Positions 24,536-64,000 of a stretch of 64,000 nt of DNA are shown here, piece by piece. The notes under the pieces are model-generated. The model had not been told where the DNA came from. It ran no database searches and saw only the letters and a list, made by a program, of their open reading frames with translations. Both the position numbers and the translations under genes were made by a program. Location of the stretch: positions 141,697 through 205,696 of the forward strand of contig BGKB01000129.1 of NCBI GenBank assembly GCA_003116975.1. The letters are read 5' to 3'. Every line of letters begins with the position of its first letter. Position 1 is the stretch's first letter. The DNA is from Aurantiochytrium sp. KH105 (lineage: Eukaryota; Sar; Bigyra; Thraustochytrida; Thraustochytriidae).

Positions 24536-24637
24536 GGCGGCAAAGGCGAGGGGAGCGACGGCGGGCGGGCGGGCAAACGGGCAAGCGACGCGAAGAAGCG
24601 CCGCGAGCGACTGCGGCTGCGGCGGAGGGGGGGGGCG

Positions 24638-24716
24638 AGAAAGCAAAGAGAGAGGGAGAAAGCAAAGAGAGAGGGAGAAAGCAAAGAGAGAGGGAGAAAG
24701 CAAAGAGAGAGGGAGA
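24638..24716. repeat. 19-bp tandem repeat, about four copies
   Basis: The unit GAAAGCAAAGAGAGAGGGA is repeated about four times almost perfectly, immediately upstream of the Roc-COR-TIR start and so probably in its 5' leader or promoter. Confidence 0.85.
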
Positions 24717-25914
24717 CTCGGACGAGGGGATGGAAAGAAGGGCGCGAGAGGAGAGAAAGCCTGGCTGGGCTGGCTGCTGATGCGACGCGGCCTTGGCGCG
24801 TTCTCCGCGGGGGGCGTGCGCGGACGGAGCGTGCCGCAGCGGCGCCCGCGCGAAGGGGGAAAAGGGGGGGAGGGAGGGGCTTGCTGGCTTGCGCCTTGCG
24901 CGCCTGCCTGCCTGCCTACCACGCGTTCGCGCCGCGGGCGCAAGGGCAAGAGCGAAAGGTGTTTGTGCAAAAAAAAAAATGCCAGCGCGTGCCATGCACA
25001 CGGCTGCACGCGCGGCTTTCGTTTCCTTTTCCGTGCACGATATTATACAGCTCGTGAGCAGAGTGAGCAAGCCTCGGAAAGCTGCGCGGAGCGCGGAGCG
25101 AATGGAGGGAGGACGTAGTATACTATAACATAATGGGATGCGGTGAATGGCGAGAGCGCGGAACACAATCTCATCTCTCAAGGTGCCTCCATTCATTAAG
25201 ATTTAGCTGGTTCGCACTCACAAAAAGTGCGCCCTTTTCTATAAAATGACAGAAAATTGGACCACGCAGGGAAAGAGAAGAAGGACGAGCAGGTTTACCA
25301 CAAATTCTTCTTTGCTGAAAGATTCTATCACTTCACGACATGGACGTTGCACAAATGATTGTAGTTGTGCGAAGAGTCGGCCGACTCAATGACGAATGCA
25401 TCTTGATCACTCGATCAGATCGTCGACCTTGTGTTTGGTGGACACAAGCGGCGACGTTGATGTCGTGTCATCAACGCACAGAATTTCAAGCGTCTCGACA
25501 TTGGGCTATCTATCTCACAAATGGCGTTGCGCACCGGGGAGCGAGGAAGGCGGAAGCAGCCCTATTTTATTCTATCATATTTCCAAAGACCGCATAAAAA
25601 CGAAGACTTGACAGACACGAAAATCCGCACTTGCGTTTCGGCTTGGTCTCCAGAGCGCGAATCTGGTCTTTTCGAGCCACGAAACTTCGTAGACGGAAGG
25701 TTATCGCGTGCGTGGTCCGCGCGAGGGGCTGACACTGGGCGCTAGTAAGGGCCGGATACTGGCAGGTCGCAATGGAGGACAGGTGCAAGTGCCTTGTGTC
25801 TCTTTGCGGATAATCAGTGTGAGTGCACGCACAACAAGCTAACCACCGCCCAGCGAGTTGCACGGACCCGAGGTCGCCCTTGAAAAGAGCAAAAACCGGC
25901 GCGTGAGGAGAGGA
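24717..25914. other. Upstream region of Roc-COR-TIR gene; no gene seen
   Basis: The left part is GC-rich with CTGC-type repeats near 24900-24920 and an A9 tract near 24970. The rest is of ordinary composition. Short frames on both strands look like chance translations. Confidence 0.35.
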
Positions 25915-48647: not shown

Positions 48648-51173
48648 CTTCTTTCTTCTTCTTCTTCTTCTTCTTCTTCTTCTTGTGTTGTTTGTGCTTG
48701 TGCTTGAGTTTGCTCTTCGGCGTTTCGGGTTTGCTCGATCTCTGCTGTCCCTTTCGCGCGAGATCCTCCTCCCTCTCTCCCCCCTTTTCCCTCCCTTCAT
48801 CAGCCCGTTTGTCCTGCATTGAACTGCGTTGTTCTGCGACGGGTGTCCTGTCCTGGCCACGTTCAAGGTGCCGTTCTCCCTCTCTTTGCTCCCACTATTT
48901 ACTGTCCCTGCTACACCGCGCAGAGAGACGCCCCTCGCGCTTCCCCTCCTCGCCCCTCACATCCATCAAACAAGTTGCGCTCCCCTGGCCGGGACCTCGC
49001 GCGCGGCCCGTGTCCAGCGCCGCGGCCCGAGGCCCGAGACGGGGACCCGCGCCCGCCCGGCGACCAGGGCGACCGGCCCTGGCGACTGTCTTCGGCCGGC
49101 GTCCGGGACGAGGACACGACGCCTCTCCTCGTTGGGCTGGGCTGGGCTGGGCTGGGCCGGGCTGGTCACGCGCATCTCTTCTCCTCGCTGCCTCAGAGGG
49201 AGCGTCGAGGTGCTCGGCCCAGGCGGGACGCCGTGCCAGACGCGCGGACTCGAGGCCGAGGGAGAGCGCGAGGGCCGCGCGAGTTGAAGCAGCGCGAGTT
49301 GAAGCAGCGCGAGCATTGCATTGCGCGAGGGCCGGGGTCCGTCGAGGACGAGCGACGACCCGCGGCCAGGGCCACCCACCCCGGCCACAGCCAGGCCAGG
49401 GCGGTGTGGGGGCGCGATGATAAGAAGTACGGCAAACGAGTTCCGACGCGCGGACGCGGCCAGGCTCGGCTCGTAGGCGCCGAGCACTTCCGCCATGGTG
49501 GCAGGTTGGACGCCGCGGAGACGCGAGGCAGCGAGCGGGGCGGGGTGTGACTCTCTGTGCAAGAAGCACGAGTCCCGAGCCCGTGCGATTCGCGACTCGT
49601 GTCCTCTGGCTGGTGGCTGCCGTGGCGAGGAGAGATTAACGTCCCTGATGGGCAGATAAATGCTCATTCAGATTGTCGCTTCTTCAGGATTGTTTGCGGC
49701 GACGGAGAAGAAAAGGAGAGAAGTTGGCGAACAGTCCGACGAGCTCCGCGTTGTGAGCGGTTGCAGCGAGATTCTTGTCCGAGACATCAATTGGTAAGCC
49801 AGCTCGTCTCGAACAACGCAGGTGAATCTCCGGGGCCTTTCGCACGTCCTCGGTTCTGCAGGAAAAAAATTGATGCCGCTGAATAAGGTTGCTGCAGTCT
49901 TGTCGTGTTTGGAAAAAGATAAGGTGTAGGAACCGCTGATGCATAGACCTTTGTCCACCAAATTCGCGGTCTTGAGGGGTGCATTGAGAAGCACACGCGA
50001 AAGCGAAATAGGAGGAAGGGGTCGTCCGAAGTTTTGAGCATGCCGGCCTTGAGCCGACCTTGGGATTCCTTGTGCCCAATCGAGACGTCCCGCTCAAGCC
50101 CTCAAATCAAAGGTATTGTCAGTCACGGCCACGGCTGGCTGGCTGGCTGGCTTGATGCACACGGACGGGCCGCGTCACTGTGGCCATGCTGTGGGGACAA
50201 ATATCCACTTCTGGTATACCACACAAGTCCCGCATCATCTTCCGCAGCAAAAGTGGATGTACACCCCGAGTTGGCCCAGTCTCACAGTCAAGTCTCGAGC
50301 TGGACCGAGTTGACCGATGCGAGGCGCAAGTCAACAGCAGGGCCATAATCAAGTTCGGCACAACGTTTAGGTCGGGCCAATGGTGGGTGACTCAGACGGC
50401 CAACCAAGTGGGCCAAATGAGCGAAGAGCATTGCACAGCAGGACGAACGGTTCCCACGTTGAGACGGGAGAACGCTTGTCATGTGTTGAAATAGGTAGGT
50501 AGGCAGGTAGCATGCGCTGGCAACAGCTTGCGTGTCAACTACTTTGGTTTTTTTAAAGTCCTGATAGGAGACGAGGGAGTAGTGGACGATGACGAAGGAA
50601 ACGGACTTTGCAAACACAGTAAGAGTGAAATGAAAGTTTGGCTGTCTGGCTCATGAGACGAGCAACACATAAATGGCCAAATTACCCGTGAGTCAAGTCT
50701 TAAATGAGTGAAAATTCATGCGACGGTCACGCTCTAGCCCATCGTACGTTAGAATTTGCGCGGTGGGCGTCTTGTAGTTTGGAACGATCCTTCATGCTGA
50801 CAAATGCGGTGAATAGAGTGTTGTCCGTAGCAGGTCGCGGGCTGAGGACGTTGTTTAGTCGATCACCAATTTCCACCGGCGTGTAGTTTGATGAAGACGT
50901 CTTGCTTATGGCAATTTTGACTGTATGATGCTGTTCGTTTCCTGAGCTTCTACAGCTACAAATTCAACAAGACTTCAAGCAACTTTTTATAGGCCTCGAA
51001 ATAGAAACGAAGGAATTGCTGATTTTCTATCCGTCATTGGGCAAGGGAGCCCTAAATTTCATCACTCGCCTCAAATCAAGTGCCCCGGCCGCTTCGGAAC
51101 CGCGACGCGTCGAGAGAGACACGTATCTTGAACGAGTTGTCGTCGCGGGACGCAGCGCACAGAGCGATCAACC
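48648..51173. other. 2.5-kb region without a recognisable gene
   Basis: The left part is GC-rich with GGGCT repeats at about 49136-49160 and divergent frames rich in Arg/Pro/Ala. The right part (49550-51170) has ordinary composition, a GGCT run near 50136-50150 and GGTA repeats near 50492-50508. No domains are seen on either strand. The far right is presumably the promoter of the PTPA-TIP41 gene. Confidence 0.35.
48650..48684. repeat. TTC trinucleotide microsatellite
   Basis: About 11 TTC units lie immediately upstream of the member 4 start codon, within its probable 5' leader. Confidence 0.85.
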
Positions 51174-53219
51174 ATGGCGGACGTAGCGGACAGCGCACCG
51201 GTGCGGCGCATCGTGCGGCCTGAGCACCTGAACGCGTTCCTCTCCTCGCCCACTTATGAGCGTCTGGAAACTTTCGTGGGCGAGATGAACTCTGCGGCCC
51301 AGGGCGGCAAGCCGACGGTGGCCGCAACGTACGAGGGCGGCGACTCGGGAGTGCAGACGATGCTTGACCTGATCGAGCACGTGGAGCAAATGCTTGAGGA
51401 ACACCCGCCCGTTGCCCAGCAAGCTGCGCGCTTCGGCAACGCGGCGTTTCGGTCCTGGATGGAGGCCGTCGAAAAATCCAGCGTTGACGATATGAGGGCT
51501 CTCAGCGAAGAGCACGCCATGGAGCTTGCTGGCTACTGGTGCGGGAGCTTTGGTAACGCGCGAAGGCTTGATTTCGGCACAGGCCACGAGGCTAGCTTTT
51601 TGGTGTGGCTGTTTGCGAGCCGCGAAGTGGGCGTCGTGAGCGATCTTGAAGGCCTCGTTCTCGCCGTCTTCCCCCGCTATCTGGAGCTCGTTTATGCCGT
51701 GCAGACCCTCTACCGGCTTGAGCCGGCTGGATCGCATGGTGTGTGGTCACTCGACGACTTTCACATTTTGCCCTTTGTTTTTGGGTCGGCGCAGCTCTGT
51801 CCCAAGGAGAATGACCCCACAACGGCGGGAAGTCTGCTTGGCACACGGCCGCGGTCCTCGCGCGACCGCATGATGGTCGAGGACATGGCCGGGTCAAGCA
51901 TGTACATGCGCGCCATCAAGCGCATCACCGAGCTGAAAACGGGCCCTTTTGAAGAGCACTCGCCGCTGCTTACGGATATCGCGCAATTGCCGAGTTGGAA
52001 AAAGGTCAACGCAGGCCTCATCGCCATGTTCAAAGGCGAAGTTCTTGCCAAATTTCCGGTTGCGCAGCATTTTCTCTTTGGCCCTCACTTCCCATGTACG
52101 TGGGAGGTCGACAGAGCCGACCTGTCGGCGCTCGAGACGGAGTCGACCGCGACGGGGCGGCCCTCGGCCACGGGTGCAAGCGCTATGTCTGGTGTGCCAA
52201 GTCCTTTTGAGGCAGCACTTCGCACGCCGGCAAATGGCGATGCTCTGACAAAGTACTTTGGCGTTTCGCGACGCCCGATCGTAGGACCTGGTCGAGGCCG
52301 CGCGCCTGTCCCAAGTTTCGGAGCAGGTGCTGGCGCATCAAATGATGCGACCGAGACGACCGCTGCGGTCGAGACTGCAGCCGTGGCGCACACGCTCTTG
52401 GACGACGAGCGCGGCGTGGAGGTCGCGGGTTTTCGTATCGAGACCAATAAAACACGCATCTCTGGAGAGAGTGAGCTCGACAGCATTCGAGACGAGCACA
52501 CGTTTGAAGGGCATTGTCTGGACTTTCCACTTCCGGAAATGCTCTTTGGTCTCAACATTGTTCGCTTCACTCACCTTGAAAGTGGCGTTTCGCTCGAATT
52601 CAACGCTGCCGACGCCCTGTGCGGATGCAAGATCGTCCGCGCGGAGGACGGCACACCGGACCGCACGCTGTTCAAGCTCCCCAATGCTGCTGACTGGGAA
52701 AATCGACAAACGCTCAATGGCGAAACCATCAAGTCTTGGCGTGATGACTTTGACTGGACTTTTACAACAAGGTACAAGGGCTCGCTCTCCGTACAAGATG
52801 AGCCACGGCCCCTGCCGTCTTCCGAGGACGGCGTGGAGATCGACTACCAGCTGCTGCGCAAGCGTGAACCGTTCTTGTATTTCGAGTCCGTGCCTCTGTA
52901 TGAAGACGATCTCTTTGACTTTGGCGAGAGTAAACTCTCGGTACGTGTGCGTGCCATGACGTCGTGCTTTTTTGCGCTTTCCCGCTTTTGGTTGCGCGTG
53001 GACAACCACTTTGTGCGCTGTTTCGACACGCGCGTCTTTTTCAAGTATGGCGCGGACCACATGGTCATCGAGCACACACGCAAGGAAATGTCAGCCAAGG
53101 AACTTGCGGACAAGGGATTTGGGGACATGCGCATTATGATGAACGAGGAGCGCGTAGAGAAGCTGCTGCGCGAGATCTCGCGCGAGACCATCAAGATCCC
53201 GCTCACGGCCAGCGAGTAG
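51174..53219 (+). CDS. PTPA-TIP41 fusion protein (PP2A-family phosphatase regulator)
   Basis: This 681-residue single frame has no stop between its halves. Residues ~12-320 are a phosphotyrosyl phosphatase activator (PTPA/PPP2R4) domain: DFGTGHEASF (~133), GVWSLDDFHILPFVFGSAQL (~188) and LPSWKKVNAGLIAMFKGEVL, then FPVAQHFLFG. PTPA is a prolyl isomerase-like chaperone that activates PP2A catalytic subunits. Residues ~413-675 are a TIP41/TIPRL domain: VAGFRIETNKTRIS, LPEMLFGLNIVRF, EFNAADAL, WTFTTRYKGSL and YFESVPLYEDDLFDFG. TIP41 binds PP2A/PP4/PP6 catalytic subunits and, in yeast, acts in TOR signalling with Tap42. The ~90-residue linker is low-complexity Ala/Thr/Gly/Pro. The two are normally separate genes. 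The start Met (MADVADSAPV) is in good context. Confidence 0.92.
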   Translation: MADVADSAPVRRIVRPEHLNAFLSSPTYERLETFVGEMNSAAQGGKPTVAATYEGGDSGVQTMLDLIEHVEQMLEEHPPVAQQAARFGNAAFRSWMEAVEKSSVDDMRALSEEHAMELAGYWCGSFGNARRLDFGTGHEASFLVWLFASREVGVVSDLEGLVLAVFPRYLELVYAVQTLYRLEPAGSHGVWSLDDFHILPFVFGSAQLCPKENDPTTAGSLLGTRPRSSRDRMMVEDMAGSSMYMRAIKRITELKTGPFEEHSPLLTDIAQLPSWKKVNAGLIAMFKGEVLAKFPVAQHFLFGPHFPCTWEVDRADLSALETESTATGRPSATGASAMSGVPSPFEAALRTPANGDALTKYFGVSRRPIVGPGRGRAPVPSFGAGAGASNDATETTAAVETAAVAHTLLDDERGVEVAGFRIETNKTRISGESELDSIRDEHTFEGHCLDFPLPEMLFGLNIVRFTHLESGVSLEFNAADALCGCKIVRAEDGTPDRTLFKLPNAADWENRQTLNGETIKSWRDDFDWTFTTRYKGSLSVQDEPRPLPSSEDGVEIDYQLLRKREPFLYFESVPLYEDDLFDFGESKLSVRVRAMTSCFFALSRFWLRVDNHFVRCFDTRVFFKYGADHMVIEHTRKEMSAKELADKGFGDMRIMMNEERVEKLLREISRETIKIPLTASE

Positions 53220-53434
53220 AGAATGGGGAAAAGGAAAAAGGAAAGAATTTATATATAAAAAGTGACTGCGAAGTGAAGTGAAAACGAGTAGAAGAGAAAT
53301 ATCTACTTGGAGGAGAACGCACGCGAAACAAGCATACTTCACGATGATGCAAAGAGCATCCATTTCGAAAAGCTTCTTGCAAGTACGTGCACAAAAGGTC
53401 GAAAGTGCCGTCGGCCGGTCGCACTTTTTTTTCC

Positions 53435-54602
53435 TTAGAGGCGCGAAGACGCAAGCACATTGGGCATGCGGTTGCGGATCGTGGACTCAGCTTCGCCAAT
53501 AAAGTTGTCCATGAGCTCCTTCACGGTCGGAAGGTCGTCAATGAGGCCAATCACCTGGCCGGCTGTCCAGATGCCACCGTCGGCATCACCGTTGCGCTCC
53601 GCTTCGCGGCCGCGGGTGCCGGCAACAAGGTGCGCGATATCGCTAAAGTCAAGGTCCATGCCCTTTGCCTTTTGGATCTCGTCCACCTCGCTGGCCACCC
53701 TGTTCTTGAAGACGCGTGCCGTGTTGTGGAGAGCGCGGAACATGAGTACGGTGTCCGTCTCCTGGGCATCAACCATGCGCTGCTTGAAAGATTCCGGCCA
53801 GTTGCACTCTTTGGTGGCGCAAAAGCGCGTGCCCATGTTGACACCCTCGGCGCCGAGCGCAATGGCGGCAGCGAGCTGCTTGCCGTCACCAATGCCTCCA
53901 CTTGCCACAAATGGGGCACGAAGCTTCTTGGCGGCCTTGGCCAAAAGTACAATGGCGCCAATGTCTTCCTCACCGGGACTGTTGTGTCACGCCACACGTT
54001 TTTTTTATTCGTAATCGTTTCGTTAGTGGCGGAGGTCAGCGAGCGAAACAAGCGAGCCAAATTGAGAGAGGGGTTGTAAAGAACTGCGGAGGGGAGGGGA
54101 AAAGGAAAGAGGGGAAACGGAATGTCAAGAGGCTGAGTCAAACGTACTGTCCGGCGCACTCAAAGGAGTCCATGGAGATGATATCGACGCCAATTCTCTC
54201 CGCACTGAGGGCATGGCGAATGGTGACACACTTGTGAATGCAAATGAGACCTGCGGCCTTGAACTTGCCAACCCACTTTTTGGGGTTGTTGCCAGCAGTT
54301 TCGACAATCTTGACGCCGCTCTCGATGATGGCGTCCGCGAATCCTTCGTAGTCAGGGGGGACCATGGCGGGCAGAATCGTGAGGTTGACGCCAAAAGGCT
54401 TGGAAGTCAGCTTGCGCACGCGTTCAATGTCGCGCCGGAGGTTCTCGGGCGTTTCGCTACGGAGCGCGGTCAGCATGCCGAGACCACCTGCCTCCGAGAC
54501 AGCCGCGCACAGTTCCACGGTGCCGACGCCCGTCATGCCTCCGCAGATCACCGGGTGCTCGATGCCGAGCAGCTCGGTCACGCGCGTGCGAAAGACTCCC
54601 AT
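53435..54602 (-). CDS. Nitronate monooxygenase family protein (2-nitropropane dioxygenase-like), two exons
   Basis: Exon 1 is 54148-54602 and exon 2 is 53435-53978, together encoding 332 residues, normal for the family. Landmarks are ICGGMTGVGTVELCAAVSEA at the N-terminus, FGVNLTI, then across the splice the FECAGHPGEED motif with its conserved His, and ASGGIGDGKQLAAAIALGAE plus GVNMGTRF, the phosphate-binding part of the FMN site. These TIM-barrel flavoproteins oxidise nitronates such as propionate-3-nitronate and give nitronate detoxification. Splicing restores the motif exactly: the His codon is split CA|T by the intron. Both exon frames end in stops without splicing (exon 1 would end CAGQYV). 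It converges on the PTPA-TIP41 gene. Confidence 0.88.
53979..54147 (-). other. Intron of the nitronate monooxygenase gene
   Basis: This 169-nt intron has donor GTACGT directly after CCGGACA and acceptor CACAACAG before TCCCGG. It contains a pyrimidine-rich stretch in its first half. It is phase 2, splitting the conserved His codon. It is the only intron in the window I can establish from protein continuity. Confidence 0.85.
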
Positions 54603-55600
54603 TCTTCTCGTTATCGTTGTTGCTCTTGTCTCTTTTGTTTATCTTTTGGTCTCGAGCGTTGTTCTGTTAACAGACCCGCCAAGAATCATGCGCTCGCGTC
54701 AGTATGCGTTGCGACTTTCAAACCCCCTTCTCCTCCTGATCATTAAAATATGATCAGGTTCGTCATCATGCGACAACCCCGCATCCTCCGGCTCGCATCA
54801 CGACCTTCTAGCTCAGCGCGCCAACGTAAAGTCGCTCCCCGCTCTCTCGCACGCGCGCACGCGCGCACGCGCGCACGCCCGTCGCTCGCCTCGCCTCGCC
54901 TCGCCTCGCCAGGCCCTCCGCGCGGGATCCTGAGCACGCGAAAGTCGCGTCCGCCCACACGATGTGCCTTCCATCCCGGGCCTCGCTCCCCGCGCGTCGC
55001 CGCGCCCTCGCCCTCGCCCTCGCCCTCGCCCTCGCCGCGCCGCTCGCGCCCGCGCAGGCCGCGGGTGGCGGCGCCTGGACCCGACCTACCTTTCGGGTTT
55101 GCTCGCTGGGATTCTGCCTGCCTGCTCAAATTTTAAGCCTCGGCTTGGCCAGGCTTGGATTCCTGCTCCGCGCATAGTCGCGGTTAGGTCAGGGGAGGGA
55201 GGAGGGAGGCCATGTCCGCCGCCGCGCTCCTGGGACGAAGGCTAGCTATATCTGGATAGAGAGCGAGCTAGGGACGCAGCTGGGCCACGGCTTGGACGGA
55301 CGGACGGACGCAAGGCGCGCGGGCGGCCGGCGGGAGATTCCGCAGACGAAGGAGGAGGGGAAGAGGCGGACGTCAGGCTCGAGATGGACGGCACGATTTG
55401 TGGGCGCAAGGTGGCGCGGATGTGACGCGTGAGCTTGTTGGGAGGGATGCCTAGAAGAGGCATTGCCGGGAGGGTTGACGATGCGGGTAGAAGCTGCAGT
55501 GCTGTTCCCGGTCAGCTTTTGCAGGAGCCGTTTGTGTTGTAAGCGCTGCGTCTCCAGGAGCAATTGAAGCGACCTCGCTGTAGAAGTCGCGCAGGAGCGA
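54603..55600. other. GC-rich upstream region of the nitronate monooxygenase gene
   Basis: Contains GCGCAC repeats at 54848-54872, CGCCT repeats at about 54887-54908 and CGCCCT repeats at about 55006-55036. No supported gene is seen on either strand. Confidence 0.35.
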
Positions 55601-55619
55601 AACTACCTGGGATTTTGAG

Positions 55620-57100
55620 CCGGAAAGCCTGGTCTGACTTTTTCTAGGCAGCCTTGAGCAAGTAGTTGGCCGCAGCCACGTTTGCTTGTACGCTTTCCTG
55701 GACCTTTTCTACCTCCACGGAGAAGTCTTCTCCACTCGACCCTCGCTCCCGCCTCTACTCGCCGATACTGCATGCGCAGTACAACCTCACTTGCATTTTC
55801 TTAAAGCGATCCTGGAACTTTTGAACCTCGATCAGCAAGCTTTTCCGCGCTGGAATACACCATGATTCTCAGCGCGACATTGCGCCACAAAGCTACGAGT
55901 CAGAGCGGCTCATCGTCGGGGTTAGTTGAACCGTTGAACGCGCGTCCTCTGCTCCGCCTCACTTGCCACGAGCGGTGTGTTTGGGACATAAACTTAATAT
56001 CCTCTTGCCTTGATCTTGAGACGAGTTTCTGCCCGCGATCACGAGGGCCTCCAAGTCAGCAACTACTCTTTCGTCAAGTCTGCGCGCCGCTCTCAAGTAG
56101 CCAAACGCCGTCCTGGGCTTGTGGTATTCCAGTCCGCGCAAGACTCTGTACAACGTGGCGTCTCGAAAGCGCATCCTCGAACTTGGGAGCGCGTCCTCGA
56201 AATTCATGTTGAGAGAGTCTCAAAAGCACAAGTGGAAGAGCGCGAGTGGAGATATAGGCTGCACGAAAAATTGAAAACGTATTGCGCTATCCGAAAAGCT
56301 CTGTGGTTGCTCTCGAGTCGCAAATTATAATCCATTGGGTGTGAACTCTTCTTTACAGAATTAGCGAGTTGGCGGGCAGACGCTCGGCTTCGAACGTTCT
56401 AAGCTTTATCACCGGTGTCTCGAACGCGAACGAACCCGCCGAATTGCAGCCCTAGGTTCCTCCGTTCCACCGGTCGACTTGTTCCTCCCTTCTCGAGCGT
56501 ACTCGATCTTTTTGCTGCTCGATGATTCTCGCGACTTTTTGCACCTCAGTTTGAACTTTATCAACTTTCTCGAGCACCATTTGCATGGCAAAGACATGGC
56601 CTGGACTAGTCTTGATGAATCGCGCGACTTGTTGCACTTCATCCTGGACTTTGTTAATTTCTCGAACCACGTTTTGCATGACAAGATCATGGCCTGCACC
56701 AGTATTCCCTACAATGCCATAAAAGTTAGACAAAACGGTAATGATAGCAAGCACCTGTACTGCGCCAATGTCTTGACGCGATAAAAGCCAGAAAATACAA
56801 ACGAGAAATAGATCCTTCGCTGGATAGAACCTCTATACAGGATTGTCGACTCGAAGGTTTTCAGTAAGACCACCAATACGAACAAAGTCAAAAAGTAAAT
56901 GATGAAAACCAGCAATGAGACCCAGCGGTGAGCTGCGTGAAAGTTGCAAGAAATAATAGAAACTCCACGCAACGCAGCTTACATCCGCCCTATTGCTCCA
57001 GAAGAAGCAATAACCGCACACAGAGTCTATCAGGAAAAATATAAAATGAAGCACACTGAGTACATTTCCATCTCGTTTTCTCATCCTGCCATTTCAACAT
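55620..57100 (-). pseudogene. Coiled-coil/membrane-segment gene remnant or multi-exon gene
   Basis: Minus-strand fragments in several frames look coding. 56833-57084 and 56709-56972 encode hydrophobic, membrane-type segments (WVSLLVFIIYFLTLFVLVVL). 56452-56760 encodes another hydrophobic stretch (VLAIITVLSNFYGIVG) and two ~30-residue coiled-coil repeats: MQNVVREINKVQDEVQQVAR, then MQMVLEKVDKVQTEVQKVAR. 55959-56207 encodes a charged helical tail ending in a stop. Further weak copies of the heptad motif (VEKVQESVQ) lie near 55700. The frames do not join without indels or introns. I cannot tell a decayed gene from an intron-containing one and recognise no family. Confidence 0.35.
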
Positions 57101-57107
57101 CCCAATT

Positions 57108-57745
57108 TTAGAGAAGCTCAACGGGGCTGTGAGACGAGAGTTGAGATGAAGAAAAATTCATGGTTTCTGCGTTGCAAATCTTTCGGTGATCACTCTGTCT
57201 ATTTTCGATACTTTGCCGAGCAAGCAAGAGTAAGAGACTTGCTGAATTTTTGGTCTTCGCCTTCGGGGTTTGCTCAATATTTGCACAGCTGCCCAGAAAT
57301 TCTTCGAGAATAGACAGCGCACGGTCACGATATTTCAACTGTTGAGCAAAGTAGCTCATCCAGTTCAGATCGCCAAGGCTCAGGACTAAAATTTGGCCAC
57401 CATCCGTTTGAAATAAAGAGAGAATGAACTGGACCAGTCCTGTTTCGTCCAATTTTGGTCGAACATATTTGGCGAGCGCGAGCACCGGCGTGACTTGACC
57501 GCGTGGACTCTATCTGTACCTTTTCAAACCAAGAAAATTGGACCTTGGTCAGTCGTGCTTGACCATAGAGCATGACCAGCTGTCTGATGCAACAGCAGAT
57601 CCAACTCCGACATGCAGGTACGGTGATTATGCTTCTCGTGCGCCTCTTTCCATTGTGCTTGAAGCAGCGAGAGCGAACCATCAAGCGCAGGAAGATGCGA
57701 GAGGAGGGAGGTGTGGAAGCGAAAGGAAGGGAGCGCCCCTACCAC
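57108..57745 (-). pseudogene. Coding-like fragments, family unknown
   Basis: Two overlapping minus-strand frames, 57524-57745 (SLLQAQWKEAHEKHNHRTCM) and 57108-57485 (TDGGQILVLSLGDLNWMSYF, then KYRDRALSILEEFLGSC), have helical, natural composition. They look like one gene broken by a frameshift near 57490-57520. TPR-like helices are possible but not established. They lie between the coiled-coil fragments and the 268-bp tandem duplication. Confidence 0.3.
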
Positions 57746-57759
57746 AGCGGCTTTCAGTA

Positions 57760-58296
57760 GCCGTTGATCCTTTGTACCAATGGCAATGTGGCTCTAGCAG
57801 AGGAAATAGCCTGTGCTCGAAAGACCTGCGTGTGCTTGCATTCCCATAAGAGTCAAACTGCTGTCCATTCTCCACGGTCAAGCGCGATTGACCACCAAGG
57901 GCCAGTTTTCTTAGAATAAAGAGTACATCATGATATTTAACAACCAGGGTGGACGTTTTTATGAGACGTTCGCGCCCCTGCTCACTAGTTCTCTTCTTCC
58001 GAAAGTTGGATGATGCCGCTAAACAGCCTTCCCTTCAGTACAGAGCCGTTGCCACTGACATTGGCAGCGAAAATAGCTTGTGCACTAAAGATTTGCGTGT
58101 GCTTGCATTCCCATAAGAGTTAAACTGCTGTTCATTCTCCACGGCCAAGCGCGATTGACTACCAAGGTCCATCTTTCTTGGAATAAAGAGTAAATTATGG
58201 TTTAGAACAAGAAGGGTGGACGTGTCCATGTGACGCTCCCCTGCTCACTAGTCCTAGTTCTGTTCTTCCGAAAGTTGAATGATGCCGCTAAAATCC
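57760..58296. repeat. Tandem duplication, period about 268 bp, two diverged copies
   Basis: Copy 1 spans about 57760-58027 and copy 2 about 58036-58296. They share TGCGTGTGCTTGCATTCCC (57827 and 58094), CATTCTCCACGG and TTCTTCCGAAAGTTG (57995 and 58264). On the minus strand both encode the same peptide pattern (QSRL-VEN-QQF-SYGNASTR-S), with changes such as Arg/Lys and Asp/Asn, so the duplicated segment probably derives from coding DNA. Confidence 0.7.
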
Positions 58297-58468
58297 TTTT
58301 CTTCATTGCAGAGCCGCAGGACGCGATGCCCGAGCGCCCGCGCTTGCTAGCGATATTATACATGACTGCAAATAACGCACTTCAATACTGCGGAGCAGTA
58401 AGTGAGTACAAGCAGTTGAGGCCGGTCGCCCACGCAGGCATGGCACACGGTAACTCAATGCCACACGA

Positions 58469-61400
58469 TTAGGTCACAGGTTCCATTCCCTGGCAATGCA
58501 AGATGTGTACCATCCCGCTGGTGTCACCAACCACGTAAACACTTCCCTGGCGGGCTGAAACTTGAATCGCATGATCCGTCGTGAAGCCAATCCCTCCGCT
58601 AAGCTTCACATGCGTTCCATTTTCAAAGTTCACCAACGTGTTTGTTCCAGGTTCAGTCGATGTCTCCGCTTCATCCTCGTCGAGTGTCTCGCCCGTTCGA
58701 GCGTTCCGGTAACAAGTCTCCTTGCGTGACTTCGATACTACCGTGTCGCCCTGTATCGCCACGCTATGGACGAAATCAGAGTGCCCCTTCAACACGTGCT
58801 GCTCCTCGCCAGACATAGCGTTCCAGATACGCACCGTCTTATCATTGGACCCAGACACGATGGTGTCGCCCTGTACAGCCACGCTCCTGACCACATCAGC
58901 GTGCCCCTTCATAACGTGCTGGTCCTCGCCCAATATAGCGTTCCAGATGCGCACCGTCTTGTCATAAGATCCAGACACGATGGTGTCGCCCTGAATCGCC
59001 ACGCTCCTGACCCTATCAGAGTGCCCCTTCAACACGTGCTGGTCCTCGCCAGACGTAGCGTTCCAGATGCGCACCGTGTTGTCCCGTGACCCACTGACGA
59101 TGGTGTCGCCCTGTATCGCCACGCTGTAGACGTAACCAGAGTGCCCCTTCAACACGTGCTGCTCCTCGCCCGACGTAGCGTTCCAGATGCGCACCGTTTT
59201 GTCCAAGGACCCAGACACGATGGTGTCGCCCTGTATCGCCACGCTGTAGACGTTTTCAGAGTGCCCCTTCAACACGTGCTGCTCCTCGCCCGATGTAGCG
59301 TTCCAGATGCGCACCGTGTTGTCCCGTGACCCACTGACGATAGTGTCGCCCTGTATCGCCACGCTGCAGACGCTTTCAGAGTGCCCCTTCAACACGTGCT
59401 GCTCCTCGCCCGACGTAGCGTTCCAGATTCGTACCGTTTTGTCCCTTGACCCAGACACGATGGTGTCGCCCTGTATCGCCACGCTTCCGACCCAATCAGA
59501 GTGCCCCTTCAACACGTGCTGCTCCTCGCCCGACGTAGCGTTCCAGATGCGCACCGTCTTGTCCCAGGATCCAGACACAATGGTGTCGCCCTGTATCGCC
59601 ACGCTGCTGACGGTACGAGAGTGCCCCTTCAACACGTGCTGGTCCTCGCCCGACTTAGCGTTCCACATGCGCACCGCCTTGTCATAGGACCCAGACACGA
59701 TGGTGTCGCCCTGTTTCGCCACGCTGGTGACTCCCCAAGAGTGCCCTCTCAACACGTGCTGGCCCTCGCCCAATATAGCGTTCCAGATGCGCACCGTCTT
59801 GTCATAAGATCCAGACACGATGGTGTCGCCCAGTATCGCCACACTGTAGACGTTTTCAGAGTGCCCTTCCAACACGTGCTGCTTCTCGCCCGACGTAGTG
59901 CTCCAGATGCGCACTGTGTTGTCCTCGGACCCACTGGCGATGGTGTCGCCCTGTATCGCCACGCTCCTGACCGAACCAGAGTGCTCCTCTAACACGTGCT
60001 GCTCCTCGCCCGACTTAGCGTTCCAGATGCGCACCGTCTTGTCCGAGGACCCAGTGACAATGGTGTCGCCCTGTATCGCCACGCTGTAGACCCGACCAGA
60101 GTGCCTTTTCAACACGTGCTGCTCCTCGCCCGACGTAGCGTTCCAGATGCGCACCGTTCCGTAAGAGGACCCACTGACGATGGTGTCGCCCTGTATTGCG
60201 ACGCTGTAGACCCGACCAGAGTGCCCCTTCAACACGTGCTGCTCCTCGCCCGACGTAGCGTTCCAGATGCGCACCGTCTTGTCATAGGACCCAGACACGA
60301 TGGTGTCGCCCTGTATCGCGACGCTGTAGACCTGACCAGAGTGCCCCTTCAACACGTGCTGCTCCTCGCCCAACGTAGCGTTCCAGATGCGCACCGTCTT
60401 GTCTCTGGACCCAGACACGATGGTGTCGCCCTGTATCGCGACGCTGTAGACCCCACCAGAGTGCCCCCTCATCACGTGCTGCTCCTCGCCCGACGTAGCG
60501 TTCCAGATGCGCACCGAGTTGTCATCGGACCCACTGACGATGGTGTCGCCCTGTATCGCCACGCTCCTGACCCAATCAGAGTGCCCCTTCAACACGTGGA
60601 GCAAGGGGTCACGAGGATGAGCAAGGGTGACGCGAGCAGGCTCCAGCCATGGCTGATCAGGTGTTTGCAGACTACGTGCCAAGGGATCTTTCGACTCGTG
60701 GCCAAGACGCGCAAGAACTTGCGACGCAAGTTCGTTGGGATCGTAGCTGAGGGCATACACTGCTTTGCTCAGGAAGCGGGGCGCAGCACTTTCGGGCGCA
60801 AAGTAGATGTCGAGTTCGACGCAGTCGCGAATGAGGTTTCCGATTGTGGCGCGCCTTTGTGCCTCATCGTCACCAACAGAGATGGCGCTCTGTACCCATG
60901 CAAAGTCATTCAGGAGCTCGAAAGCCTCAGCGTGCTTGCCGCTCTTGACGAGGTGAAAGACGGCGTGACGGAGCGAGAAAACGTCGTTCCGCGAGTTGCT
61001 GCAGTAGTCGGCCAAGGCAATGTGGCCATCGTCAATGTCCACGCCAAGGTTTCCGCTCCGATCGAAATCAATCAGCCAGTCTGCCATCTGCTTGTGAATG
61101 AGCGCCACGCGACCATCGCCGCCCTGGTACAAGAGATTACGCGCGTCACCAACGATCTTTTTCGTTTTGTTCTTGGTTTTGCCAAGAATCACGGTGAGTT
61201 GCTCGACGCTCAGCGGCTCGCGCGCTGCTACGATGGGAGTTAGCAGAGACTGGTAGGCGTCATTACCGCCCATCTTGTTGCGTAGGCGCTCAAAATACTC
61301 TCTGAACATGCCGCCAAGCCCATTAGGAATAGCGTCTTTCTTGGAGATGTCCTGCGCTGTCAACAATCCCCCTCGCTTCTCCTCGTACATCCGGTTCAGG

Positions 61401-62905
61401 GTCTCGGGAAGGAAGCTCGCCCAGAGAAAGAGACCTTCGGATCGCTTGGAAAGAATCTTGGCGCAAGAAGCAACGTGCTTTTGCTCCACGGTATCTTTCA
61501 TGTCGCACAGCAAATGCTTGATGTGCTTTTTGATGTCGCAAAAGTTCTGTTCGTCCTTGAGCTCCAGCACTTTAAAATCAAGGCTGTTGTTGGTGATGCC
61601 GCGTTGAATCTCGCCTTCGGGACGCGTGCTCACGACCAAGCTGAGCCATGAGGGGATCTTTTCATTCCACGTACGAATGACCGCTGTCAGGACATCGTCG
61701 CTCTTGCTGCACTCGTCGAGAGCGTCAAGCACGACCACTTGTCGCGTCTGGTTTTTGTCTTTGCCGAGCTCATTCAACGGATCGACGAGAATAATCCGAA
61801 ATACGTCCGCCAACTTCATATTCTCATCACGGATATCACCGAGGTTCAACGAATCAAGTTGATCGTCAAAGCCGGGAACGCTCTGATAGAGCTGCGATGC
61901 GATGCTGAAAAGAGCCTCTTTCGGATCAGCAGCCTTGAATTCATCGTGCCGAAAGAAATGGTACGCTGCCACAGAAATAGGCTCGCGCGTTTTGTTGCTG
62001 CGTCGCCACAGGCTACGCACTCGAGATGGCTTTCGGCGAGCTTTCACACTACCATCGTCTTCGATAGTTTCAGTCACATCCCCGTCGATCAGGAGAGCGC
62101 CTCCACGGTGGCAAAGCTCGGCCATGATGACACTCTTGCCGACGCCGCCGTCGCCGACAAGAATGAAGACGTCACTCTGTTCCTTGTTGTACCAGTCGCA
62201 AAGCTCGTCGATGATCCAGCTCCGCGTGCCGAGGGTAAACTTTTCAGCCTTGCTCTTGGCATGCACCGCTGAGTTGCAGGGGTTTAATTTTTGTTCGAGT
62301 TTTTCCTCTTTGGTTTCCTCTTTGAGAGTCCTCTGGGGGAATAAGTCAAGTTTATCATTCACATCCTGCATTGTGCCCTCGAGATTCTTCACTCCGCGAT
62401 TGATACTCTTCACCTCGCGGGCGGTTTCGTTCCCTGTGGTCCAGACATCCTGAAGCACGTCGATTTTAAGATCATGCACACACTGTTTCACGATCTTCTC
62501 CGCCTCCTCAATTTTGCTGCGATCGCTTGGCACATTTGCCAATACGCGTGCTTGCCGGGCGGCGCCTTGACACGTTCTAAGCAAACGAAACCATGTGCCT
62601 GGCGTGCCTTGATCTGACATCCTTTCATGTGCTGGTCTTTGAAATGGGGCAAGTTTTTCTCGTACCTCCTTCAACCTGATCGTGACCTCCTCCACCTTGC
62701 CTTTTAAATCGGAGTTCGGAGTCTCGTCTCCTTTGAACTCATTGAGTTCTTTATCAATCTGCTTGAGCCGTCCATCAAGAGAATCGAGTTGCTTTTTAAG
62801 AGATTCAACTTTCTCGTCGTTGATGGCCAAGTTATCGAAAAGGTCCCTAACGACTTTGTATGCCTGCCACGCGGCCTTCACCACTTCAATCGCTTCCGCC
62901 GCCAT
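58469..62905 (-). CDS. NACHT-type NTPase with WD40 repeat array (NLR/NWD-like)
   Basis: This is a 1478-residue protein. Residues ~1-95 are a helical, heptad-rich N-terminus (VESLKKQLDSLDGRLKQIDK), and a further helical linker with a NACHT-flanking charged region runs to ~225. The NTPase has P-loop VGDGGVGKSVIMAEL (~251-258) and Walker B VVVLDALDECSK (~389-399), followed by VVSTRPEGE as a sensor-like strand. A winged-helix/helical region follows to ~765. Fifteen WD40 repeats of exactly 40 residues then run from ~770 to ~1370, plus a decayed sixteenth and a ~90-residue unique C-terminus. This is the STAND architecture of fungal HET-E-like and animal NWD proteins: the sensor array gates nucleotide-dependent oligomerisation and the N-terminal domain signals. 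A recognition or immunity role is inferred. No known death-effector domain is identified at the N-terminus. Confidence 0.88.
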   Translation of the reverse strand: MAAEAIEVVKAAWQAYKVVRDLFDNLAINDEKVESLKKQLDSLDGRLKQIDKELNEFKGDETPNSDLKGKVEEVTIRLKEVREKLAPFQRPAHERMSDQGTPGTWFRLLRTCQGAARQARVLANVPSDRSKIEEAEKIVKQCVHDLKIDVLQDVWTTGNETAREVKSINRGVKNLEGTMQDVNDKLDLFPQRTLKEETKEEKLEQKLNPCNSAVHAKSKAEKFTLGTRSWIIDELCDWYNKEQSDVFILVGDGGVGKSVIMAELCHRGGALLIDGDVTETIEDDGSVKARRKPSRVRSLWRRSNKTREPISVAAYHFFRHDEFKAADPKEALFSIASQLYQSVPGFDDQLDSLNLGDIRDENMKLADVFRIILVDPLNELGKDKNQTRQVVVLDALDECSKSDDVLTAVIRTWNEKIPSWLSLVVSTRPEGEIQRGITNNSLDFKVLELKDEQNFCDIKKHIKHLLCDMKDTVEQKHVASCAKILSKRSEGLFLWASFLPETLNRMYEEKRGGLLTAQDISKKDAIPNGLGGMFREYFERLRNKMGGNDAYQSLLTPIVAAREPLSVEQLTVILGKTKNKTKKIVGDARNLLYQGGDGRVALIHKQMADWLIDFDRSGNLGVDIDDGHIALADYCSNSRNDVFSLRHAVFHLVKSGKHAEAFELLNDFAWVQSAISVGDDEAQRRATIGNLIRDCVELDIYFAPESAAPRFLSKAVYALSYDPNELASQVLARLGHESKDPLARSLQTPDQPWLEPARVTLAHPRDPLLHVLKGHSDWVRSVAIQGDTIVSGSDDNSVRIWNATSGEEQHVMRGHSGGVYSVAIQGDTIVSGSRDKTVRIWNATLGEEQHVLKGHSGQVYSVAIQGDTIVSGSYDKTVRIWNATSGEEQHVLKGHSGRVYSVAIQGDTIVSGSSYGTVRIWNATSGEEQHVLKRHSGRVYSVAIQGDTIVTGSSDKTVRIWNAKSGEEQHVLEEHSGSVRSVAIQGDTIASGSEDNTVRIWSTTSGEKQHVLEGHSENVYSVAILGDTIVSGSYDKTVRIWNAILGEGQHVLRGHSWGVTSVAKQGDTIVSGSYDKAVRMWNAKSGEDQHVLKGHSRTVSSVAIQGDTIVSGSWDKTVRIWNATSGEEQHVLKGHSDWVGSVAIQGDTIVSGSRDKTVRIWNATSGEEQHVLKGHSESVCSVAIQGDTIVSGSRDNTVRIWNATSGEEQHVLKGHSENVYSVAIQGDTIVSGSLDKTVRIWNATSGEEQHVLKGHSGYVYSVAIQGDTIVSGSRDNTVRIWNATSGEDQHVLKGHSDRVRSVAIQGDTIVSGSYDKTVRIWNAILGEDQHVMKGHADVVRSVAVQGDTIVSGSNDKTVRIWNAMSGEEQHVLKGHSDFVHSVAIQGDTVVSKSRKETCYRNARTGETLDEDEAETSTEPGTNTLVNFENGTHVKLSGGIGFTTDHAIQVSARQGSVYVVGDTSGMVHILHCQGMEPVT
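58799..60598 (-). repeat. Fifteen tandem 120-bp WD40-coding repeats
   Basis: Exactly in-frame 120-bp units encode a consensus starting HVLKGHS-x-x-V-x-SVAIQGD, then TIVSGS-x-D-K-TVRIWNATSG and EEQ. DNA identity between units is very high. A sixteenth, degenerate unit follows to about 58680. Amino-acid differences concentrate at the two residues after GHS, the residue after the next Val, and the residue after SGS. Confidence 0.95.
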
Positions 62906-64000
62906 GGTGAAAGTGGTGCGAGCGCAAGCTCAAGCCAACTTCTCGCTGCACACTTTGCCTGCTCGAACCGCGACCGAGCTTTGCTCGGCACGCGCGAATC
63001 GATGGGCGTTCGGGGTCTGCTGGCCGTCGTTGCCTGAGGGTTGCGCCTTTGCTGGCGCACGCCCAATTTAGTTTTTCTCACCCCTGCGGGCGCGCGAGGA
63101 CCCCCTTCCCCCTCACTGCTGCGGGGCACGCGCCGGCAGCAGCAGCTGCAGCAGCAGCTGCAGCTGCAGCTCGTCATCGCTACTACATCTGTCACTGCGA
63201 GACAAACCTGCAGACCAACCAGTGGGAGGCTTGTCGTTGTCCCTCTATACCGATCATTGCCGTTTGCGCGAGAGGGGGAGTGTTGGAGAAAAGGGACGCA
63301 AGTGCGTGCGCGCCCGGTACTCGCTGTCGCAGTCGCGGTCGCTGGCGCTGCAATCTCCGCTGCGTTGCGGGCAGCTGCGCGTGTCGGCCATCGGCACCGT
63401 GGCGCCCTAACTGACTGGTGACTGTGAATGAGTCTTCTTGTCCTCTTTACGCCGGCCACAGCCACTCACGCACGGCAGCCAGTTCGCCGCCAGCTGCGGG
63501 CGTCGACTTGCAGCCTGCGAACGCACACCCTCTACACTCCAGGTGAATGTTGGATTGCCTCCCAAAATGGGGGCACTTTTTTCACACCGCGCGGAAAGGA
63601 AGAAAGGGGAAAAAGGAGGGAAAGGATCGGGTAGATCACCGGGACTTAAAGCTCTCGTGACCTCAACGCGACCAGATTTGTACGATTCTATAGAAATGTA
63701 CATTCCTTAATTTCTAATCCACCTTAACTGGGTATATCTCCCCACGGAAGAATTTACAGAGGTCTAGGAGTACTAGAGCACAGCTATGTAGGTTGCGAAG
63801 TTGTCACCTTAATAAGCTATGCCTTATCACAAAACGAGTCAGTGACGGATAAATATTTCATCGTGCGCCACATGCTATATTATTTTCCCGGTAACTCAAT
63901 AATTTACCCGAACCTTTCATATGATTTATATGGGATGGGAAAAAACGGAGACTGTTCAGTCGATCAATCACTTGCAGGCTCGCGATGGTCTTGCAGATAT
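62906..64000. other. Upstream region of the NACHT-WD40 gene; no gene seen
   Basis: Contains a GCAGCAGCTGCA-type repeat at about 63132-63170. From about 63700 to the window end the DNA becomes clearly AT-richer, with many stops in all frames. No RNA gene or coding region is recognised. Confidence 0.4.

Follow-up and report, generated by a model that had tools for sequence, protein, structure and literature searches.

The candidate receptor gene at the contig end

The window, as we call the whole stretch analysed here, comprises 64,000 nt of the genome of Aurantiochytrium sp. KH105 (contig BGKB01000129.1, positions 141,697 to 205,696) and forms the end of contig C129 in a diploid-like assembly of 76 Mb and 367 contigs. 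In the final 5.6 kb of this contig, we identified a complete gene (58469..62905) whose open reading frame (ORF) runs, intronless, from ATG to stop with zero internal stops and encodes a 1478-aa protein with a helical N-terminus, a NACHT-type NTPase and a 16-unit WD40 array. The gene and all its parts described below lie on the reverse strand.

The middle of the protein is a nucleotide-binding part of the STAND (signal transduction ATPases with numerous domains)/NACHT type with a winged helix (60611..62284). It contains the motifs GDGGVGKS and LDALDE, which we take to be Walker A and a Walker B-like motif, and matches the Pfam models NPHP3_N (66.1 bits, cut-off 24.8), presumably a member of the NACHT/STAND group, and HTH_TANC1 (28.6 bits, cut-off 27). 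With NPHP3_N and the winged helix, the protein is predicted to possess the NACHT/NB-ARC-type STAND NTPase characteristic of NOD-like receptors (NLRs), and the WD40 array, with its Pfam match (E 1.3e-124, 15 stretches) and propeller-like model, would represent the C-terminal superstructure-forming repeats of such receptors.

The N-terminal module of ~207 aa (62285..62905) is predicted, with low confidence, to be all-helical; the underlying model of the N-terminus and the NACHT part is poor (predicted local distance difference test score, pLDDT, 46) and was used for helical content only. The module occupies the place of the TIR module of the relatives described below, and the homology of one of these, L053 on contig C61, to the window gene begins at 62284, just past the module. 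When a second copy was sought genome-wide, the sole match was the module itself. Searches of PDB sequences returned zero matches up to E 1 for the N-terminus together with the NACHT part, and a single match at E 0.18 for the N-terminus alone. HeLo-like, MLKL-like and other named domains were considered for the module and rejected: the matches to PF17111 (PigL_N, formerly under a HeLo-like name) and Seryl_tRNA_N were weak and sub-threshold, and the reversed sequence scored better (DUF2730, E 2.7e-6, over the cut-off), so that neither match led to an assignment. No HET domain was found among the best 25 of the 44 Pfam matches of the window protein, nor in the full list for the N-terminus.

The WD40 units begin at residue 770 and recur with exact 40-codon spacing 15 times running, which gives 15 full units of 120 bp each (58799..60598) and a degenerate 16th unit recovered by the unit scan (58679..58798), followed by a C-terminal tail common to relatives (58469..58678; low model confidence, two short strands). 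Tandem Repeats Finder reports a 120-bp period with 15.5 copies and 0% indels. The original prediction, made from the sequence alone, had described 15 units of exactly 40 codons, leaving the 16th uncounted, and its three lists of the residues found after GHS, after the following Val and after SGS or TGS are correct for units 1-15. The four strongly variable positions that it named correspond to unit codons 8, 9, 11 and 25, with position 27 as a weaker fifth. Across the 16 units, amino-acid entropy peaks at codons 9, 25, 11 and 8 (3.2, 2.7, 2.3 and 2.0 bits, respectively), and, in the 15 full units, nonsynonymous diversity (pN) at the same codons is 0.73, 0.71, 0.64 and 0.45, compared with 0.06 in the scaffold, for which synonymous diversity (pS) is 0.18. 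The pN of 0.45 at codon 22 is due solely to AGT/TCT serine codons, Ser being kept in 15 of the 16 units. The description of the units as nearly identical holds only in a relative sense, given that the distance to the nearest sister unit is 8-17 nt for each of units 1-15; several relatives have more homogenised arrays than the window gene.

A model of the array, built on a 15-sequence alignment (pLDDT 82.7; predicted template modelling score, pTM, 0.50), shows regular four-strand blades with a low-confidence break at model residues 280-288, after unit 7. According to the secondary-structure string of this model, from which the positions of the variable codons were taken, codons 8-9 lie in the loop before strand a (d-a loop), codon 11 opens that strand, and the b-c turn contains codons 25 and 27. 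The variable positions are thus predicted to fall outside the propeller core, in agreement with the surface positions envisaged in the original prediction. In a Foldseek search of solved structures, Apaf-1 entries occupied ranks 1-3 (TM-score ~0.41), and designed eight-bladed Tako8 proteins covered one propeller (TM 0.84-0.85 by target). Some units of the arrays L023 (C72) and L053 (C61) carry a 5-residue insertion in the b-c turn, right at hypervariable codon 25, of the types GGFFSTDNT, GGYFSTDNT and GEFISTDNT.

Relatives, haplotypes and neighbouring genes

A genome search with the N-terminal and NACHT part gave 64 matches, which were merged to ~59 loci with both haplotypes counted and with the possibility that matches at contig ends represent one gene in two halves. 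Near-full-length matches show homology from residue 199-206 onward; a few begin later, some of these at contig ends. Two of the ~59 loci contain an in-frame TGA, and the full or partial sequence of 39 was examined. In 30 of the 33 relatives with the NTPase (P-loop) frame in view, the NACHT part is preceded by a TIR motif, the other three frames being too short to show the TIR part, and TIR_2 scored over the cut-off in all four relatives scanned. The CLxE motif, the glutamate of which we take to be the NADase catalytic residue, is kept in 29 of the 30 relatives with the TIR part in view and has D in one. The NTPase part is under purifying selection (median ratio of nonsynonymous to synonymous rates, dN/dS, 0.27; 253 pairs, 23 sequences). 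The search for paralogues suggested along with the original prediction yielded ~59 loci with a common NACHT part, with the units of different genes built on one scaffold; the TIR family, the replaced N-terminus and the haplotype difference described next go beyond that prediction. We also considered a bacterial origin, for which the single relative found in the genome_contigs collection by two exact peptide patterns (24% identity) is uninformative.

The window aligns with C61:260571-268927 from 50000 to 58317 at ~91% identity over 8.4 kb and on to 58376 at 87%; collinearity ends at 58376, beside the receptor 3' end, so that the flank 50000..58376 is common to the other haplotype. About 2.7 kb past the break, C61 carries a different TIR-NACHT-WD40 gene (6 units), inverted relative to the flank. 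At a second site (C72 vs C155), the upstream flank aligns at 84-90%, the arrays contain 8 and 11 units, respectively, and the variable residues differ. At these two sites, then, the haplotypes carry different receptors or different arrays. Among the 21 arrays reaching the C-terminal unit, the unit count is 4-16, where masked sequence interrupts L030, one of the two rows with 4 units, and counts are lower bounds wherever the spacing exceeds 40 (e.g. L016). Repeat number, which a re-shuffled receptor was predicted to vary, is thus variable as compared within one genome. Heterozygosity is uneven, with ~91% identity at the window flank vs dS 0.01 in the NACHT part of L018/L019. L022 and L023 were rejected as alleles, because the flank pairs L023 with L012, a locus whose frame is without the TIR part and has a masked base nearby.

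Family loci are enriched at contig ends, with 23 of the 43 loci of known contig extent at most 10 kb from an end (6.8 expected). The enrichment is real, and subtelomeric position and assembly breaks in repeats are indistinguishable as its source. We do not claim a subtelomeric library, as some contigs break inside the gene; (TTAGGG)4 was not found, other telomere motifs not having been tried.

Upstream of the gene, two dispersed repeats abut, of ~108 bp (63542-63649) and 355 bp (63646-64000), both with copies on many contigs, the best of which are 97-100% identical. Between the neighbouring genes and the receptor lies a short ORF (56452-56754) with a two-copy 93-bp repeat (56521-56703) that encodes a coiled-coil-like motif. 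Farther away, 21917-25009 (reverse strand) encodes a Roc-COR-TIR protein (Roc 70 bits, COR-A 49, TIR_2 51). A genome search with TIR_2 gave at least 150 matches (150 of 258 candidates scored), many in ~1200-aa frames and including an apparent allele of the Roc-COR-TIR gene at C61:296516; judging from these matches, the genome contains a second large TIR family beside the NACHT-WD40 one. PfaD-type polyunsaturated fatty acid synthase scored over the cut-off at four genome loci, in two pairs of equal score, and no light-harvesting protein was found in the genome search. Together with the genome size, this combination points to a diploid thraustochytrid rather than a fungus, polyunsaturated fatty acid synthase being a mark of thraustochytrids.

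Evolution of the WD40 units

The unit scan recovered 325 units in 36 array rows (with L030 contributing two frames), leaving out L001-L009, L013 (replaced by the longer copy L053) and L048-L052; units with <20 scaffold matches, N or stops were dropped. The second alleles L019 and L047 were dropped from the pN/pS, close-pair, scaffold-pair and combination counts, and L038, a near copy of L035, from the close-pair, scaffold-pair and all-unit tests. At most 12 nt separate 198 of the 288 retained units, drawn from 29 array rows, from a single scaffold consensus. As this set was chosen for closeness to the consensus, its synonymous diversity is lowered by construction, and the all-unit test (18 genes; 24 homogenised arrays) repeats the tests without unit-level selection.

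With all units of the 18 genes, the between-gene median scaffold pS is 0.170, vs 0.242 for the NACHT part, and scaffold pS is below NACHT pS in 113 of the 153 gene pairs, including 16 of the 17 pairs that involve the window gene. Identical units occur inside arrays such as L012 and L043. The variable codons are decoupled from this concerted scaffold: in 505 between-array pairs with an identical 105-nt scaffold, codons 9, 11 and 25 differ at 5.39 of 9 nt, close to the 5.83 of random pairs. Within arrays, 36 identical-scaffold pairs differ by a mean of 3.03 nt at these codons, and nine pairs do not differ at all, which is recent unit duplication. Altogether, 292 units display 270 distinct combinations at codons 9, 11, 25 and 27. 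Residue linkage is weak within neighbouring groups of codons (8-9, z 4.5; 8-11, z 3.7; 9-11, z 2.8; 25-27, z 3.7) and lower across groups (8-25, z 0.5; 11-25, z 0.8; 8-27, z -0.8; 9-25, z 2.0; 11-27, z 2.0; 9-27, z 1.6), as recombination inside units would give.

Measured over the 33 arrays, codons 9, 11 and 25 have a pN that amounts to 2.4-2.6 times the pS of the scaffold (bootstrap lower limits 1.87-2.05), or 4.2-5.0 times after Jukes-Cantor (JC) correction, and the scaffold itself has a pN/pS of 0.55. When all units of the 24 homogenised arrays are taken, diversity at positions 1-2 of these codons is 5.5-6.4 times that at four-fold sites; the selected 198-unit set gives 7.0-8.2 times. The closer four-fold sites lie to the variable codons, the higher their diversity (Spearman rho -0.63, p 0.015, 14 codons; for the complete unit set of the 24 homogenised arrays, rho -0.66, p 0.011), the near sites being 2.6 times as diverse as distant ones, where the near and far cut-offs (4 and 6 codons) were set after the values were seen and the Spearman test is cut-off-free. 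Two-fold codons alone give the same sign but no significance (rho -0.60, p 0.07). Such a synonymous rise toward the variable codons is the footprint expected of diversifying selection combined with gene conversion.

A putative recognition system and its alternatives

Taken together, we consider it probable that the gene encodes an intracellular NLR-type receptor belonging to a diversifying, homogenised WD40 family; its function as a recognition receptor we infer from architecture. The array would form beta-propellers in tandem, interrupted after unit 7. Exchange among the ~59 loci and inside each of them, by unequal crossing-over and gene conversion, would keep the scaffold alike while changing the repeat number, and diversifying selection would renew codons 8, 9, 11 and 25 (and 27), whose top-face residues may contact ligands. 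Binding could then free the NACHT-type NTPase to oligomerise and gather the N-terminal modules, the effector presumably being a TIR with the conserved CLxE glutamate in most relatives seen and the unclassified helical module in the window gene. The output would likely be signalling or cell death, possibly through NADase activity, and the ligands may be variable non-self, such as viruses, parasites or partners of other genotype.

Several observations weigh against this interpretation. The Pfam NACHT model scores 23.4 bits on the nucleotide-binding part, under its cut-off of 26.7, and the N-terminal module has no Pfam match better than those of its reversed sequence, remaining unclassified. The propeller model has a pTM of 0.50, and the first rank of Apaf-1 (TM-score 0.41) is weak evidence because WD40 matches are plentiful (1963 at E up to 0.001). 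Only 8 of the 18 genes have units more similar to one another than to those of other arrays, and homogenisation is therefore family-wide rather than gene by gene; all nine variable nt are common to only one of the 505 identical-scaffold pairs, so that whole-unit copying between genes leaves little trace. The per-site comparison proposed along with the original prediction bears out the excess of pN over scaffold pS at codons 9, 11 and 25, but same-codon pN/pS is just 1.10-1.33 there (lower bootstrap bounds 1.00-1.07), with 0.89 for codon 27, values near 1 because the variable codons are saturated. A slightly raised local mutation rate would leave a pattern similar to the synonymous footprint. 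Finally, the apparent alleles L046/L047 and L018/L019 show 0 of 33 and 1 of 33 amino-acid changes, respectively, at codons 9, 11 and 25 (11 units compared in each pair); given these near-unchanged pairs of two diverged members, the proposed dynamics do not apply to all members.

A dedicated DNA-level process (templated, reverse-transcriptase or donor-cassette) might instead rewrite the variable codons, with selection acting as a filter. We regard this as unlikely, although such a process would account for variable codons that are saturated regardless of scaffold distance (5.39, 5.52, 5.57, 5.62, 5.60, 5.61 and 5.58 of 9 nt at 0-6 scaffold differences), for JC-corrected diversity at positions 1-2 of codons 9, 11 and 25 that is 10-30 times that of four-fold sites in the 198-unit set, where it is inflated by the selection of units, and for multi-nucleotide changes at variable codons in 62-70% of 7475 close pairs, which are not independent. 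However, synonymous diversity climbs gradually toward the variable codons, and codon 10, flanked by both 9 and 11, has a value close to that of the scaffold (0.111 vs a mean of 0.088), which indicates linkage and no strict codon targeting. Moreover, the avoidance of first-base C/G at codon 11 (6%) is easier to read as a protein-level restriction, and neither targeted mutagenesis nor a general mutator would leave the two apparent allelic pairs almost unchanged. It appears less probable still that diversifying selection is absent, the loop positions being simply unconstrained, with structure and homogenisation preserving the rest. Ordinary WD40 proteins also have loop positions that differ from blade to blade, as do L018 and L046, in which these positions are stable between apparent alleles, and the same-codon pN/pS near 1 would fit; yet relaxed sites should not beat the neutral rate, as codons 9, 11 and 25 do both in pN relative to scaffold pS and at positions 1-2 relative to four-fold sites, nor is the elevated diversity of neighbouring four-fold sites expected.

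We consider it very unlikely that the pattern is an assembly artefact, with collapsed or chimeric arrays and false haplotype differences. The enrichment of the loci near contig ends, the contigs ending inside the gene at L014, L020 and L034, and the location of the window gene itself within 5.6 kb of a contig end would be in line with such an artefact, and short-read assemblies of arrays of this kind are described as unreliable (PMC12222747). On the other side, the frame is open over 15 units without an indel, the N-terminal module is single-copy, the second haplotype site (C72/C155) is internal to two contigs, with the one tested flank aligning, and both apparent allelic pairs match unit for unit. 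Beyond the NLR-type receptor family preferred here, one could imagine a stramenopile repertoire-making system, in which the ~59 TIR/helical-NACHT-WD40 loci form one blade library, a dedicated process together with selection rewrites the binding-face codons many times faster than neutral, and haplotypes may carry different receptors, but this extension appears doubtful.

The closest likeness is to the HNWD/NWD proteins of Podospora anserina (HET-D, HET-E and HET-R), which combine a NACHT-WD40 architecture with near-identical, concerted repeats and variable repeat number. As in HNWD, the WD40 units studied here evolve in concert within and between genes. The HNWD repeat unit has 42 codons, compared with 40 in the window family. 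Repeat-induced point mutation (RIP) is, to our knowledge, not known in the lineage of the window organism. The two systems differ in the N-terminus (HET in HNWD, TIR or helical here, with TIR_2 in relatives and no HET-type effector), in the NPHP3_N-type NTPase, in the apparently non-fungal genome and in size (10 HNWD family members vs ~59 loci on two haplotypes), and recognition is demonstrated for HNWD whereas it is deduced from architecture for the window family. According to the passages available from PMC1805685 and PMC2873952, the positively selected codons of HNWD are 7, 9, 25 and 27, paired around the conserved 8 and 26 in top-face loops. In the window family, the variable pairs are 9/11 around V10 and 25/27 around D26, compared with 7/9 and 25/27 in HNWD (PMC1805685, in the same passages); these pairs are the structural equivalents of the selected HNWD pairs and, in the model, would likewise lie on the propeller top face. 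The same part of PMC1805685 gives 55 distinct combinations in 69 HNWD repeats, and tandem propellers have been modelled for HNWD proteins as well (PMC12222747). The original prediction of a HET-D/HET-E-like combination of concerted repeats and diversified binding-face residues is thus supported down to the same codon pairs; as for the rapidly re-shuffled recognition receptor it proposed, the family, the shared scaffold, the sites and the repeat number agree, and recognition itself is the putative function. By analogy, the family appears to be a real and well-supported non-fungal version of the fungal recognition system, with TIR effectors.

Other systems share individual traits. Apaf-1, the best solved match (TM-score 0.41), also has an NTPase followed by tandem WD40 propellers, but its repeats are diverged rather than hypervariable, and it combines NB-ARC with CARD, vs NACHT-type and TIR in the window family. 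In the receptors of brown algae, leucine-rich repeats (LRR) or tetratricopeptide repeats (TPR) are reportedly shuffled as exons, in contrast to the intronless WD40 array with codon-level hypervariability of the window gene. The brown-algal ROCO and NB-ARC-TPR proteins are similar in that they, too, are candidates for immune receptors of a stramenopile and have shuffled parts (PMC11378527). Diversity-generating retroelements (DGRs) of multicellular bacteria diversify NACHT-associated sensors with focal hypervariability but, as described in the accessible part of PMC10907252, comprise a C-type-lectin target, in contrast to WD40 arrays, and a reverse transcriptase, an element for which no search was made in the genome studied here. 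According to the passages available from PMC4986451, highly conserved repeats are rare overall (0.4% in plants, 0.8% in animals and 1.2% in dikarya), with an enrichment among the NLRs of fungi. Among the open-access papers listed in our searches, we found no NACHT, TIR-domain or NOD-like receptor family of this kind for thraustochytrids or Labyrinthulomycetes, the one paper retrieved dealing, by its title, with a desaturase; Aurantiochytrium and Schizochytrium were likewise missing from the 20 papers listed out of 278 in a broader search. Within that literature the receptor system is apparently undescribed in the thraustochytrid lineage.

To conclude, the design of the fungal incompatibility receptors, with homogenised blades and a few hypervariable top-face codons, is seen here in a genome that appears remote from fungi and with TIR-type N-termini. 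It becomes testable whether variable non-self gives rise to this design in every case where NACHT-WD40 receptors meet it, and what accelerates the change of the variable codons in a lineage with no known fungal-type RIP. Thraustochytrids are marine, exposed to viruses and grown industrially, and a recognition or cell-death repertoire in these organisms would bear on how they resist viruses and on how NLR immunity originated.
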